NCBI GenBank assembly: GCA_016841955.1
Contig: JAENYE010000002.1
Location: 375,344 to 439,343 of the forward strand
Direction of reading: 5' to 3'
Source of the DNA: Methanobacteriota archaeon
Lineage (GTDB): Archaea > Halobacteriota > Methanomicrobia > Methanomicrobiales > Methanoculleaceae
DNA: 64,000 nucleotides
Shown: positions 5,159-60,659 of the stretch, piece by piece
How the letters are laid out: each line of letters starts with the position of its first letter
Position numbering within the stretch: position 1 is the stretch's first letter
The notes under the pieces: generated by a model
What the model saw: only the letters and a program-made list of their open reading frames with translations
Databases searched by the model: none
Told to the model about the DNA's origin: nothing
Made by a program: the position numbers and the translations under genes

Positions 5159-5425
5159 TACATGAAACGATAGTCTTTCACAGGAAGGACCACGGAAAGC
5201 GTTAGACAACCCAAAAATGCCTCTTCTTTTACCCGGATCCCGGCCCCGGCGAACGACACAACTGATATATGCGATGATGACCCAGCACGACCGGTCGACG
5301 GATTTTTACCGGAGTTTCAAGGCAAGACGGAGCGTGCAGGGACCGAAAGCGAACCGGTACCCCCGTTCAAGTGCTCTTGAAGCGTTACTGCCAGTGGAAA
5401 GAGGCGATCTGAGAGGTGAGTTGCC

Positions 5426-11643: not shown

Positions 11644-13101
11644 ATGGATAGGATCGAGCAGTTCTCGATCATCGCACCCGACATAGGCAATATCTTCAGG
11701 TACATGAGCATCGCCACGGCGGTGCCGCTCGTCGTGGCGGTGATCTATCGTGAGTGGGAGATGATCCTGCCCATGGTCTCCGTCCCCGTCGTCCTTTTTC
11801 TCCTCGGGACGCTTCTTGTCCGTGTACCCCGGCGGGAGCGTGAGGCACCCCTATCCGCCGCCCTTATGGCTGTCGCCCTGATCTGGCTGATCATCGCGCT
11901 GGTGAGCGCCCTGCCGTTCTGCCTCGGGCTCGGCGTCCCGTACCTCGATGCCGTCTTCGAGGCGATGTCGGGATGGACCGACACGGGCCTGACCATGATG
12001 CGGTCGGTCGATGATCTGCCCCGGACGCTCCTCTTCTGGCGGTCGCTGATGCAGTGGCTCGGCGGCATCGGGATCGTCGCTTTCACCGTCGCGATGGCCT
12101 CGAGAACCGGGCTGACCCAGTTCCGCCTCTACCGGTCGGAAGGACGCTCGGAGGCCCTGATGCCGAGCGTCGTCGCAACGGGTTTCGAGATGTGGAAGAT
12201 CTACCTGGTGCTGACCGCCGCCTCGATCGGGCTGGTCCTCATATCGGGGATACCCCTCTGGGACGCGGTGAATATCGCCCTTGTCGGAATCGCCACCGGG
12301 GGGTTCTCTGTCCACACGGAAGGGATTCCCTTCTACAACAACCCGCTCCTCGAGGTTCTCATCGTCCCGGTCATGATCGCCGGCGCCCTGCCGTTCAAGC
12401 TCTACTACCTCCTCTACCGCCAGAGAGGGGCACGGTTCTTCGAAGACCAGCAGGCGCGCCTCCTCTTCGTGCTTGTCGCGCTCGGGATCGTCGTGATAGC
12501 GTGGGACCTCATCACGCTCAGTGCAACCGATCTCCCCACGGCCATCCGCCAGGCGCTCTTCATGTCGGCCGCGGCGGCCACCAGCACCGGGTTCCAGGTC
12601 GCCTCCCCGAACGAGTGGGCGAGCGTGACCGTCCTCTTCCTCTCGATGCTGATGGTGATCGGCGGGTCGTCGGGGAGCACCGCTGGCGGCATCAAACTCT
12701 CCCGGGTGGTCCTCGGCTTTCGGAGTCTGATCTGGTGGTTCCGGCGGATGTTCGTCTCCGGGAAGGTGCTCATTCCCTTCAAGTACGACGGCAGGGTGAT
12801 CCCGAAGAACATCGCCGACCTCGAGGTCTCCCGGAACATGCTGGTCATCATGCTCTACTTCCTGATCATCTTCGTCGCCACGATACTGGTGATGCACCTG
12901 CAGCCGACATCCTTCGATTCGAGCAACGTGATCTTCGAGGTCGTCTCCGCGATGTGCAACAACGGTATATCCACGGGGTTCGTCTCGCCCGACATGGCCG
13001 ATCCGGCGAAGGCACTCTTCATAATGGTCATGTGGATCGGGCGTCTCGAGGTCATTCCGGTGATCATGCTCGTTATGGGTGTCCTCAAGCGGTTCGAGTG
13101 A
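11644..13101 (+). CDS. trkH: TrkH-type potassium uptake channel
   Basis: A 485-residue polytopic membrane protein of the Trk/Ktr/HKT superfamily. Four pore repeats with selectivity-filter glycines can be seen (SGWTDTGLT, ATGGFSVH, ATSTGFQVA, NNGISTGF). The TrkH hallmark GGSSGSTAGGIKLSR follows the third repeat. It conducts K+ (or Na+) inward under control of a TrkA RCK protein. No trkA gene lies next to it, so the regulator must be encoded elsewhere. A T-rich tract and small hairpin follow around 13127-13160. Confidence 0.95.
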   Translation: MDRIEQFSIIAPDIGNIFRYMSIATAVPLVVAVIYREWEMILPMVSVPVVLFLLGTLLVRVPRREREAPLSAALMAVALIWLIIALVSALPFCLGLGVPYLDAVFEAMSGWTDTGLTMMRSVDDLPRTLLFWRSLMQWLGGIGIVAFTVAMASRTGLTQFRLYRSEGRSEALMPSVVATGFEMWKIYLVLTAASIGLVLISGIPLWDAVNIALVGIATGGFSVHTEGIPFYNNPLLEVLIVPVMIAGALPFKLYYLLYRQRGARFFEDQQARLLFVLVALGIVVIAWDLITLSATDLPTAIRQALFMSAAAATSTGFQVASPNEWASVTVLFLSMLMVIGGSSGSTAGGIKLSRVVLGFRSLIWWFRRMFVSGKVLIPFKYDGRVIPKNIADLEVSRNMLVIMLYFLIIFVATILVMHLQPTSFDSSNVIFEVVSAMCNNGISTGFVSPDMADPAKALFIMVMWIGRLEVIPVIMLVMGVLKRFE

Positions 13102-13182
13102 GCGGTTCGCTCCGGAGCCTCAAGGACTATTTCGTTTTCGATCGTTATTGCTGGAACGATAGGGATGGTGGAAGCCCCGTAT

Positions 13183-13495
13183 ACTGGACCGTGGGAGTAT
13201 CGCCACGGGGGGAACGACTGCCGGAACGGCAGGAGTTCGAGAAACCCGAAGGGTTTCGCTGTGGGGACAATGGGGAGTGCGACCGAAGGGAGCATGAGAA
13301 ACTCGAAGAGTTTCGAGGCGTGAGCGCAGCGAGCATGAGCACCGATAGGTGCGAGGGGGGAGACCCCCTCCCCTGCAACCCCTCCCCAGACGCGATATCC
13401 ACAGGAAATCCGTTTATGGATTCATGATATCTCGAAGCGTAGCCGAAAGGTGCGAGGCATAACCGGAAGGTGCCGTGAGCCTCAACGGCATACTC
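13183..13495. repeat. GAA-loop hairpin array, locus A
   Basis: Noncoding region between converging genes (trkH and 13588-14208). It starts with a module shared with locus D (13183-13212). A chain of short hairpins follows with different stems but alike loops: CTGCCG-GAA-CGGCAG (13218-13232), GAAACCC-GAA-GGGTTTC (13241-13257), GAAACTC-GAA-GAGTTTC (13298-13314) and GCACC-GATA-GGTGC (13339-13352). A G/C hairpin (13353-13370) and degenerate copies (for example AACC-GGA-AGGT) run to about 13495. Spacers such as GAGCATGAG and GTGCGAG recur at the other loci. From there to 13587 nothing recognisable is seen. Confidence 0.8.
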
Positions 13496-13587: not shown

Positions 13588-14208
13588 TTACTCCGGCGGG
13601 TAGTTCATGTACAGGTCGTCCACCGTCGCCCCGTCCCCGCCGCTTTTTGCGAGCAGGTCCATGTAGGTGTAGACCTCGGGGGCATCCTTCTTCAGGAGTG
13701 CCGGGGTGGTGTGGTAGAGCATGAAGGCATCGGCAAAGAGCGCCTTCTCCCTCTCCTCGCCGGGGGGAACGCTGATCCGGGCCAGGTAGGTTCCGGGGTT
13801 TTCAGCGAGCGTCGAAAAGACCGTGCTCTCTTCAAATCCCATGGTGTGGTAGACCCGGTACCCCACCTGCCGGGCAAAAACTTCGTCGGCCCGCGCCGGG
13901 TCCCTGTCCGACCGGATGTAGATAGCGTTCTCCTCGGGGACATAGAGGCCGCTCACGTTCCCGGACCCATCCTGCTGCCTGAACTTTTCACTCCCGCTGT
14001 CGATGTAGACAGTGAGGTTCTCCATAAACTCTTCCCTGATCTTGGTGCTCTGCTGCAGCACCAGGGCCTCCGCAAGTGCCGCTTCGGTGCCGCTCCCATC
14101 CCTGTTCTCCAGACGGAAACCGGCGACCGGGCTCACTGAGAAGGCCGAACAAACGACGACGATGAGAACAATCGCCGCAATCAACCGTGATCGGAATCGT
14201 GGGTCCAT
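13588..14208 (-). CDS. Secreted or membrane-anchored protein, unknown function
   Basis: A 206-residue protein with an N-terminal signal or anchor helix (LIAAIVLIVVVCSAFSVSPVAG, about 9-30). An exported domain follows without a family I recognise. Recurrent features are FMENLTVYIDSGSEKFRQQ, GLYVPEENAIYIRSDRDPA and YHTTPALLKKDAPEVYTYMDLL. It ends with NYPPE. A TATA element at 14246-14258 serves it. It diverges from the NifH-like gene, but no functional tie is evident. Confidence 0.7.
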   Translation of the reverse strand: MDPRFRSRLIAAIVLIVVVCSAFSVSPVAGFRLENRDGSGTEAALAEALVLQQSTKIREEFMENLTVYIDSGSEKFRQQDGSGNVSGLYVPEENAIYIRSDRDPARADEVFARQVGYRVYHTMGFEESTVFSTLAENPGTYLARISVPPGEEREKALFADAFMLYHTTPALLKKDAPEVYTYMDLLAKSGGDGATVDDLYMNYPPE

Positions 14209-32096: not shown

Positions 32097-32130
32097 ACCA
32101 AAAGCGCAAGAACAACTAAAGACCCCCACC

Positions 32131-32230
32131 GCCCGGCGCTTCGCGCCTCCTCTCGCACCTCGCACCTCCGGTGCTCGAACTCCGTTCCGAGTGGGACGTC
32201 GTTCCCGCCCCCTCAGGGGGCGGGCAGTGC
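32131..32230. repeat. Hairpin array, locus C (loops read TTC/TCC on plus, GAA/GGA on minus)
   Basis: Between converging genes. Hairpins: GGCGC-TTC-GCGCC (32135-32147), GCACC-TCC-GGTGC (32162-32174), an imperfect CTCGAAC/GTTCCGAG pair (about 32174-32191) and CCCGCCCCC-TCA-GGGGGCGGG (32204-32224). Read on the minus strand these match the GAA-loop arrays at the other loci. The remaining 32231-32448 has no gene; TGGCGATA near 32231 echoes the module shared by loci A and D. Confidence 0.75.
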
Positions 32231-32448
32231 GTGGCGATAGGTCGTGGATGGGGGGCACAACTGACTGCACCGGACATCATGTTTCTACCCCCGCGTCGAA
32301 CACACCGGGGTCAGCGGTTCGGTCTGCTCCTGAGACCGTTCCGTGTTCTCCGGAACAACAGCCACTCGCCCGCCTGAGAGCCCGAGACCCTCACCACCGC
32401 CTCTTCTCCCGGACCAGAATTCTCTACCGGGCCTTCACCCCAGGGGAA

Positions 32449-57875: not shown

Positions 57876-59360
57876 ATGTCTCTCATCGTGCTCGGAACTG
57901 CATCCCACGTGGGCAAGAGCGTGACCGTGGCGGCGCTCTGCCGTGCGCTCTACCGGCGGGGAATCCCGGTTGCGCCGTTCAAATCCCAGAACATGAGCCT
58001 CAACTCCTACGTTACGGGCGACGGGAGCGAGATCGGGATCGCCCAGGCCGTCCAGGCCTTCGCGGCCGGCGTCGAGCCGGAGGCCGACATGAACCCTGTT
58101 CTCCTCAAACCAAAGGGGGAGGCGATCTCGCAGGTGGTGCTGCTGGGGCGGCCGTATAAGGATGTGCAGATCCGGGACTACTACGCCGAGACAGATGTGC
58201 TTCTTGCGGAGGCCGTTTCTGCGTTCGAGCGGCTGCGGAGACGCTTTGGGCACGTGGTGGTGGAAGGGGCCGGGGGAGCGGCGGAGGTGAACCTCTACGA
58301 CCGCGATATCGCAAACATCAGGCTGGCCCGGTGCCTCGCACTCCCCATCGTCCTGGTCGCCGATATCGAGCGGGGCGGGGTCTTCGCCCAGGTCTACGGG
58401 ACGCTCGCCCTCCTCCCGGAGGATATCCGGCCTCTCGTCGTCGGGATCATCGTCAACAAGTTCCGGGGCGATGCCGGGCTCTTCGCATCGGGCGCTGCAA
58501 AACTCGAGGAACTCACGGGTGTCCGGGTGCTCGGCGTGGTGCCGTATGCGGATATCCCCCTCCCGAGCGAGGACTCGCTCTCGATCGCCGACAAAGGGCA
58601 CCGGAAGACCGGGAGCCCGGTCAGGATCGCCGTCGTCCGCCTCCCCAGGATCTCGAACTTCACCGACTTCGAACTCCTTGAGCAGCACGCCTCGGTGGAC
58701 TATGTCCCTCCGGGAAGACCGCTTGCGGGCTACGACTGCATCATCCTCCCGGGGACGAAGAACACCGTGGAAGACCTCGCCGTGCTCAACCGTGCCGGGA
58801 CGGGAGAGGAACTCCGGCTCGCCCGGGAGCGGGGGGTCCCGATCATCGGAATCTGCGGCGGCTACCAGATGCTCGGGAACCGGATCTATGACGCCGGCAT
58901 CGAGTCGGAAACCCCCGCCGAGTACCGGGGGTTCGGGCTCCTCGACGTCGTCACGGCTTTTTCCGGCTACCGCAAGACGACGGTGCAGGTCCGGCGCCGG
59001 GCATCCGGGCCCGGCCCCATCCTCTCGGGGATGGGGGAGGTGGACGGCTACGAGATCCACATGGGCGAGACGGAGCGGGGAGCGCTGCCCGAGGCGTTCG
59101 CCGGGGAGGGCGCCGCGACCCCCGACGGCCTGGTCTTCGGGACCTACATGCACGGCCTCTTCCAGAACCCCGGCGCCGCAAACGCCCTCCTCGCCTACCT
59201 CTCGGAGCGGCGGGGCGTGCCGTTCGAGCCGGTGACGAACCCTGGCGGCGGCGCCCTCGGGGCCACGGCATCCTACGACGACCTGGCCCGGCACTTCGAG
59301 GAGCACGTGGATATGGATGCGATTCTAGCGTATTTCACGGACGGAACGTCCGGAGCATGA
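57876..59360 (+). CDS. cbiP: Cobyric acid synthase
   Basis: A 494-residue CobQ/CbiP amidotransferase that amidates four carboxylates of the corrin ring. The N-terminal P-loop-like domain ([20 protein letters not shown]) is followed by [20 protein letters not shown]. The glutaminase domain has Cys in [10 protein letters not shown] and His in YMHGLFQN. It diverges from nrdJ with a 57-base shared promoter region. The last codons lie inside a GAA-loop hairpin (59338-59352), so the protein's final residues (TDGTSGA) are encoded by the repeat. Confidence 0.95.
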
Positions 59361-59550
59361 GAAAACGCGAAGCGTTTTCGAGCGGCGAGTGGGCCGAAGG
59401 GTGCGACGGACAACGTCCGGAACTTGAGAAGACCAGAGATCTTCGGGTGGGGGTTACGAGGAGGAGTTTACGGGAATCTCCCTGCAGGGGAGGGGGGGGA
59501 CCCCTCCCCCATGGCGATACCACCACGGTCCAGTGTACCAGGATATGCTA
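59338..59550. repeat. GAA-loop hairpin array, locus D
   Basis: Begins inside the cbiP 3' end: CGGACG-GAA-CGTCCG (59338-59352), then GAAAACGC-GAA-GCGTTTTC (59361-59379), CGGAC-AAC-GTCCG (59407-59419) and GAAGACC-AGA-GATCTTC with one mismatch (59428-59444). G-rich and C-rich tracts follow. At 59506-59534 on the minus strand is the same module as at 13183-13212: ACTGGACCGTGG, GTATCGCCA and GGGGG are identical with the same spacing, about 26 of 29 bases matching. Nothing is recognised in 59551-59603. Confidence 0.8.
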
Positions 59551-59603: not shown

Positions 59604-60659
59604 TCAGATAAAGAACCGGAACGCCATCCAGGCGATCAGCACCATGATGGCGGAATACTTCAGCCCCGCGAGTGCCCGGCCTTCGCCCATGACGCCTGCC
59701 GCAAGCCCCGAGAAGAATCCCTGGATCAGTGCGGCGTGGCAGAAGAGCCGGTTGTAGAGGAAGAGGTCCACGGTGCCGATGAACGCCTGGCTCGAACCCG
59801 ACGCCGCGACCGCCTCGCCGGCCTCCGCCATGGTGGTGAGGAAGGTGCTCGAGAGCACCCCGATGACGAAGAGGAAGACGAAGAACGACATAACAACGAT
59901 GATCATGTAGATCATCATCCCGTTCTTCCGCTCCGACTTCAGGTTAAAGAACTCGTAGGCATCATGCGCCGCCGCCCGCAGCACCTCGCTCACGTCGCCG
60001 CCGGCGGAACTCGCGTGGGCGATCAGGTCGACACTCCGCTCGGCGAGCGGGGTGTTCACGGCCTTCCCGAACCGGCGGATGGCCTCCACGAACGGTACGC
60101 CCCAGGACATCTCGGTATCGAGTTTGCGGATATGCGGCGTGAGTGCCCCGTACTCGCCCTCCGAGACTATGTGGATTGCGTGCGGGAGCGTCATGCCCGA
60201 ATCGTTCATCCCGGCCACGTCCCGGAAGAAGTTCGGGAGGGATGCCTCGATGCTCGATACACGCAGCGATTCCTTGAGGTCGAGGGCTGCGAGCGGCACG
60301 ATGGCGATGAGGAGCGAGAAGACAAAAATATCGTCGATCATCGTCGTCGTGAGGAGGATACCGATGCCGTAGGACAGCACCATGCTCACGAGCCCGCCGA
60401 TGAAGAGGAGGAGCGCCGCCGGGACGGAGATGAAGAGGACGGTGGCGGGCTCCGCCATCATCACCTGGAGCGGATGTTTGAGGAACCGGTAAAACCCTTC
60501 CTGATACTTCCGCCAATTCTCAATCCTGCCGAAGATATCCCGCTCCTGCTCCTCGAACGGGTCGGGCGCCGGAGCGCTCTCCCCCGCGCCACCGTCGGGA
60601 GACCGGTTCCGGCCTGAAGACCGGTTCAAAAAGTCGTCGAAGATTTCTTTGAATCCCAT
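59604..60659 (-). CDS. Type II secretion/pilus F-type membrane protein (GspF/TadC/FlaJ)
   Basis: A 351-residue membrane platform protein. Transmembrane segments lie near 65-105, 230-265 and at the C-terminus. A cytoplasmic GspF domain reads LRVSSIEASLPNFFRDVAGMNDSGMTLPHAIHIVSEGEYGALTPHIRKLDTEMSWGVPFVEAIRRFGKAVNTP. It occurs as the second of two GspF paralogues after a GspE-like ATPase, which is the arrangement of archaeal pilus/secretion systems. One base separates it from the upstream paralogue. Cargo genes (pilins) are not within the window. Confidence 0.9.
   Translation of the reverse strand: MGFKEIFDDFLNRSSGRNRSPDGGAGESAPAPDPFEEQERDIFGRIENWRKYQEGFYRFLKHPLQVMMAEPATVLFISVPAALLLFIGGLVSMVLSYGIGILLTTTMIDDIFVFSLLIAIVPLAALDLKESLRVSSIEASLPNFFRDVAGMNDSGMTLPHAIHIVSEGEYGALTPHIRKLDTEMSWGVPFVEAIRRFGKAVNTPLAERSVDLIAHASSAGGDVSEVLRAAAHDAYEFFNLKSERKNGMMIYMIIVVMSFFVFLFVIGVLSSTFLTTMAEAGEAVAASGSSQAFIGTVDLFLYNRLFCHAALIQGFFSGLAAGVMGEGRALAGLKYSAIMVLIAWMAFRFFI

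Follow-up and report, generated by a model that had tools for sequence, protein, structure and literature searches.

A modular repeat family with hairpin-rich interiors in Methanoculleaceae that resembles the mosaic repeats of bacteria

Introduction

Mosaic mobile repeats are well studied in bacteria. A stretch of 64,000 nucleotides from an archaeon of the family Methanoculleaceae (contig JAENYE010000002.1; the whole stretch is called the window here) raises the question of whether archaea have something of the kind. Two sites in the window share a 29-base module, ACTGGACCGTGG-NN-GTATCGCCA-N-GGGGG, at 13183-13211 on the plus strand and at 59506-59534 on the minus strand; 26 of the 29 bases are equal and three differ. 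What is this module, and how does it relate to the hairpins that lie beside it? An initial annotation suggested that a conserved end next to variable hairpins is what the boundary of a mobile or spreading element would look like.

Here we follow the module through the window, its source genome and related genomes. We find it probable that the 29-mer forms the core of one end module, the 5' one, in a family of modular, non-coding repeats that lie between genes in the Methanoculleaceae.

Results

The module and its surroundings in the window

The pattern ACTGGACCGTGGNNGTATCGCCANGGGGG matches exactly at both 13183-13211 (plus) and 59506-59534 (minus), with a chance expectation of 0.00 even at three mismatches (100 shuffles of the window). 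This confirms the identical spacing and the agreement at about 26 of 29 bases that had been noted for the two sites. The first had been placed at 13183-13212; the start is correct, but the module is 29 bases long and ends at 13211, one base earlier. Hairpin arrays do adjoin the module on both occasions: folded as RNA, the whole of copy A (the plus-strand site) reaches -115 kcal/mol (z -4.5 versus shuffles) and copy D (the minus-strand site) -83 kcal/mol (z -3.9). The features of the window are as follows.

11644-13101, plus strand: TrkH gene upstream of copy A (PF02386, E 4.7e-59), convergent with the next gene
13173-13211, plus strand: 5' module of copy A, conserved core 13183-13211; exact pattern match
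13212-13390, plus strand: hairpin-rich interior of copy A, from the sequence and the RNA fold of the whole copy
13391-13422, plus strand: 3' module of copy A, GCGATATCCACAGGAAATCCGTTTATGGATT; score 41.7 in the 3'-module scan
13588-14208, minus strand: gene downstream of copy A, on the opposite strand; no match in Pfam
32224-32242, plus strand: inner part of a degenerate 3' end, a two-mismatch match to GCAGTGNGTGGCGATANCC (locus L368)
57876-59360, plus strand: CobB/CobQ-like gene ending at copy D (PF07685, E 3e-47; PF01656), convergent with 59604-60659
59361-59505, minus strand: hairpin interior of copy D, from the sequence and the RNA fold
59506-59544, minus strand: 5' module of copy D, conserved core 59506-59534; exact pattern match, profile score 46.8
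59604-60659, minus strand: type II secretion F-like gene ending at copy D (PF00482, E 7.2e-19)

Copy A is complete, with both ends present. Against a profile built from 186 copies over 33 positions its 5' module scores 51, where the null reaches at most -3.2, and the outer 25 bases of its 3' module score 28.7. This second and different end module, at 13391-13422 in copy A, was not visible to the initial annotation, and conservation at the 5' end extends about 10 to 24 bases farther out than the 29-mer. Copy D has the 5' end only; a scan for the 3' module gave no match there. The neighbouring genes are convergent at site A, at site D and at a partial site near 32230.

This partial site had been described as a weaker echo of the module near 32231. 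It does belong to the family, though not as a fainter version of the 29-mer. The echo, TGGCGATA, lies at 32232-32239 and as a bare 8-mer is near chance, with 4 occurrences in the window against 1.23 expected. We assign it to the family because its context, GCAGTGCGTGGCGATAGGT (32224-32242), has two mismatches to the inner part of the 3' end. Hairpins at about 32120-32223 precede this degenerate 3' end; the 5' module is missing. Elsewhere in the window, 5289-5313 on the minus strand resembles a 3' module with a score of 14.9, above the 99% null (11.0) and below the null maximum (17.8), and may be a remnant.

Copies in the genome

The module is not confined to these two sites, an outcome that had been named as evidence against an element. 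Its core, TGGACCGTGGNNNTATCGCC, occurs in the source genome in 24 exact, 7 one-mismatch and 2 two-mismatch copies, 33 in all across 2.43 Mb, scattered over tens of unrelated sites; 30 of the 33 were inspected with their flanks. Up to one mismatch there are 31 copies and none in a reversed-pattern control; at three mismatches the counts are 47 and 5. A pattern for the inner 3' end reveals extra sites that have no 5' match, 32224-32242 of the window among them. We did not trust its weak matches because at three mismatches it gives 41 against 11 in the control.

Of the 18 contig ends, seven have a copy no more than about 130 bases away, judged by reading coordinates, where about 0.1 would be expected. 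They are both ends of C1, the starts of C2 and C3, and the ends of C4, C8 and C9. The elements break assemblies and account for contig breaks in these genomes.

Distribution among genomes

The search of other Methanoculleus genomes that had been proposed found the module dispersed there as well. Within the genus 31 of 35 genomes match the pattern, with 0 to 49 copies each and none in the controls. Profile R1, with at most about 27 candidates scored per genome, matches 46 of 232 genomes of the order: 33 of the 35 in the genus, two others in the family (27 and 11 matches) and 11 outside it, ten of which have a single match at E 0.001 to 0.01. Among the genus genomes, the profile detects no copy in G030 and G021 and only a few in G002 and G011. 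Two matches fall in G098, from a different family of the order; the better one, at G098:C59:1480-1523, has E 1.7e-13. Contamination or horizontal transfer may account for them. In the named collection, the matches listed were to Methanoculleus, to Methanomicrobiales/Euryarchaeota bins and, as single low-scoring hits, to bacteria. The element is hardly found outside the Methanoculleaceae.

The pattern has no match in the phage and plasmid collections, and on this ground we reject carriage by phages or plasmids. Six viral-contig and 13 bacterial matches were taken as chance: their scores are 1.5 to 28, most are coding-like, and none has a convincing 3' module (best 3' score 12.3, L377).

Two end modules and a variable interior

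The canonical order is 5' module, GC-rich hairpin interior, 3' module, with module boundaries drawn from gap-free profiles. In the 5' module, conservation around TGGACC starts weakly at about -24, becomes strong at -12 and runs to +20. The 3' module is GGCGATATCCACTGGAAATCCGTGCATGGG, and its conservation is lost at about +32. A 3' module lies 31 to 587 bases downstream in 102 of 190 distinct 5' copies; the 96 copies with a 3' score of at least 18 were used in later counts.

Could the module serve instead as a protein-binding site (nucleoid, partition or regulatory) that is conserved in its own right, with hairpins inserting there by accident? The 5' core is very conserved, in some copies the core and the bases after it make a 20-base dyad, CCGTGGGGATATCGCCACGG, and the copy at L066 has almost no interior. 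But the invariance of the core is partly ascertainment, because the search pattern selected the copies, and CCACGG, the second arm of the dyad, is seen in no more than 27 of 186 copies, or 55 with CCATGG counted as well. A copy number of 0 to 49 across species of one genus and the many empty orthologous sites also count against such a site, which we consider improbable.

The inner edges of the two modules, TATCGCCA and TGGCGATA, are inverted repeats, and the outer parts are so more loosely. The family-consensus ends are imperfect inverted repeats; the whole is therefore a foldback element. Such ends might instead be the closing helix of a structured RNA family, with copies transcribed as small RNAs or as 3' UTR structures. 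The fold of copy A pairs its two modules, copies A and D both fold far better than shuffles, and copies sit downstream of genes. Against this, the two arms within a copy show no pairing advantage over arms drawn from different copies (permutation test with 5000 rounds on 88 distinct copies; outer helix z 0.6 and 1.4, inner helix z 1.0, each of them in the wrong direction). This result argues against an RNA family: complementary consensus ends that do not covary within copies fit sites maintained through a protein or gene conversion rather than through base pairing. Moreover, the interiors get inverted and replaced, some complete genomes have no or almost no copies, and Rfam yields no family match in the window and, in 8 loci, a neighbouring tRNA only. 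We reject the RNA reading on the arm-pairing result and judge it unlikely.

Two blocks mark the direction of the interior, X (GGGGCTGACGGGGAG..CTCCCCTGTC) and Y (TGTAACCCCCACCC..GGGGCAGTGCGTGGCGA). They are co-oriented in all 42 of the clearly called copies (33 forward, 9 reverse) among the 96; none of the 96 is clearly discordant, L188 being discordant on a weak X call, and the remaining copies have one block, neither block or a weak call. The interior therefore flips as a whole against the modules. Its make-up is a mosaic of different hairpins, X and Y blocks included, rather than a row of tandem copies of one unit, and at shared sites its length and hairpin content vary between species. The interior at L066, from a small-genome relative, is just 11 bases long. 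By eye, L121 appears to be a copy with no interior at all.

Smaller hairpin units seem to nest as separate palindromes within one or the other arm of a larger stem, each flanked on its two sides by GAG/CTC. The units so bounded, in the interiors of L041 and L022 and at 13270-13350 of the window, seem as if they insert at GAG.

Whole elements also occur in tandem arrays, at L199 (Methanoculleus sp. EBM-46), in a region of G005 and at L171. The tandem units measure about 200 to 400 bases, with a common spacer between each 3' module and the 5' module that follows.

Presence, absence and inversion at orthologous sites

For site A, 30 orthologous loci were compared, out of 32 matched genomes. Eight have the module, five in the direction of the source genome (itself included) and three opposite, with weak matches at L110 and L114; 12 have at most 100 intergenic bases, and 10 otherwise lack the module. 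At site D the module is present in 7 of 30 orthologs (three in the direction of the source genome, four opposite, some weak) and absent from 23. As anatomy, the conserved end beside variable hairpins stands: the module is the repeated end of a dispersed element whose hairpin interior varies. Species differ at sites A and D in whether the element is there and in which direction it lies, but active mobility is not borne out. The loci compared yielded none of the target-site duplications or precise empty sites that had been proposed as checks, and none of the indels listed between the window region and four close relatives contains the module.

Over all loci compared there are 52 orthologous-site pairs, 32 in the same orientation and 20 inverted; the pairs share sites and so are non-independent, and in some one flank alone matched. 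The near flank has turned along with the element in 10 of the 20 inverted pairs, at one end and never clearly at both. At L007 and L246 the flipped part is bracketed by inverted extra 3' modules, an arrangement that is not general. Flanking inverted 3' modules were considered as the general cause of outer inversions and rejected, occurring at L246, L020, L004, L012 and L007 only. They cover some cases only, because of 186 upstream regions just 7 contain an inverted 3' module that scores above the 99% null. The direct orientation, which is that of the tandem arrays, is more frequent and is found in 34.

Where both interiors could be classified, the interior is flipped relative to the modules in 10 of 14 inverted pairs versus 9 of 30 same-orientation pairs (Fisher p 0.02, for pairs that are non-independent, a few of the same-orientation ones lying within one tandem locus). 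The modules could be the two recombination ends of a dedicated cassette-switching system, in which a recombinase flips and exchanges hairpin cassettes between constant TATCGCCA/TGGCGATA ends in the 3' flanks of genes. We hold this to be a doubtful proposal; if true, archaea would possess, across the genome, invertible 3'-UTR structures comparable to a shufflon.

Many species have several sites in common, and most copies are therefore not recent. Some sites are old and species-shared, with interior and orientation alone changing. About 3 kb around the element is 95 to 97% identical at L056 (G001), L062 (G007) and L166 (MH98A); TrkH of G001 and G007 matches that of the source genome at 88 to 90%, below the level of this region. 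The high identity is perhaps due to recent transfer or to strong conservation.

Another explanation is that old quasi-palindromic DNA is being reshuffled by ordinary replication slippage, template switching and gene conversion, with no dedicated enzyme and no real transposition. DNA rich in hairpins readily undergoes such changes, several species often have a site in common, and the 7 of 18 contig ends at copies are as expected of hard, repeated sequence. Yet two fixed end modules and the concerted flip of the interior point to defined boundaries, and tens of unrelated sites are occupied. We consider such reshuffling improbable.

Gene context

Both neighbours could be called for 24 copies. Thirteen of these stand between convergent genes, 11 between codirectional genes (the calls at L028 and L046 depend on short, low-scoring neighbours inside hairpins) and none between divergent genes. 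Background gaps of more than 150 bases in seven regions number 33 convergent, 64 codirectional and 33 divergent (Fisher p 0.002 for the avoidance of divergent gaps, 0.007 for the excess of convergent ones). The copies avoid divergent promoters and are biased to the 3' sides of genes.

Discussion

We think it likely that the module belongs to a BOX/BIME-like mosaic repeat family that behaves as DNA and may have moved by transposition. Copies are dispersed and spread through the genus in varying number, and their interiors are inverted and replaced in concert. Elements are inverted or absent at orthologous sites, stand in tandem arrays and favour the 3' sides of genes. We infer that the element spreads and gets rearranged as DNA. 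Its ends would be recognition and recombination sites for a putative transposase or recombinase supplied in trans, and interiors may be flipped or exchanged through recombination at short inner inverted repeats. Copies would survive where they do least harm, in the 3' flanks of genes, where the hairpins, once transcribed, may serve as 3' structures.

Several findings stand against this mechanism: the loci compared yielded neither a precise empty site nor a target duplication, nor an element with a gene inside it, and sites common to many species make most copies old. The flips that take in the near flank at one end only, in 10 of 20 inverted pairs, are unexplained by simple transposition or by a single inversion at the modules. 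Short conserved ends, for their part, can equally arise via gene conversion without transposition.

Which protein might act on the ends? Among the loci compared there is no element with a gene between its ends: 3' ends lie within 600 bases, and the sole one more than 900 bases away belongs to the tandem locus L199. Just 19 of the 94 5' copies that lack a close 3' end had 3500 bases downstream to inspect. The RAYT-type Y1 transposase (PF01797) has 0 matches in the source genome and none in 28 of the 35 genomes of the genus; seven have any match, six above the cut-off. Mobilisation of the RAYT/IS200 type was rejected, the gene being absent from the source genome and most copy-rich genomes; G018 has both.

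The literature searched describes no mosaic mobile repeat for Methanoculleus, and the passages of PMC12306157 and PMC3035220 consulted contain nothing on these repeats. Gene or RNA calls in these element regions should be treated with caution.

How does the family compare with known systems? For a structured RNA, neither covarying pairs nor a match to a curated family in Rfam was found. Like MITEs, as defined in the part of PMC3049150 consulted, the elements are short, non-coding and multicopy, with strong secondary structure. MITEs have terminal inverted repeats; here the consensus ends are imperfect inverted repeats whose arms do not covary within copies. Unlike MITEs, the elements have a heterogeneous GC-rich interior. 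Neither a target-site duplication nor a parent transposon was found among the loci compared. With REP/BIME, as presented in the passages of PMC2817692 consulted, they share palindromic units in alternating orientation, a mosaic build and an extragenic position; they differ from REP/BIME with RAYT in their long constant end modules and in the lack of Y1 from the source genome and from 28 of 35 genomes of the genus.

The passages of PMC3049150 on BOX of Streptococcus pneumoniae describe a plan of boxA-(boxB)n-boxC, with constant ends and a variable, hairpin-forming middle. BOX is intergenic and enriched between convergent genes, its middle differs in length among strains, and mobilisation in trans has been proposed; its flanks gave no clear evidence of a target duplication (PMC3049150). 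The archaeal family likewise has two constant end modules around a variable hairpin middle (102 of 190 copies), an intergenic position and a convergent bias. Unlike BOX, it is archaeal and GC-rich, its interior is a hairpin mosaic flipped as a block rather than a tandem array of one boxB-like unit, and the whole element is inverted at orthologous sites; the likeness is one of plan. The repeats offer many orthologous sites within one archaeal family at which hairpin cassettes have apparently been inverted, exchanged, gained and lost. Comparing strains could thus reveal the mechanism. The repeats resemble the mosaic repeats of bacteria and seem to be their archaeal counterpart, one not described before.
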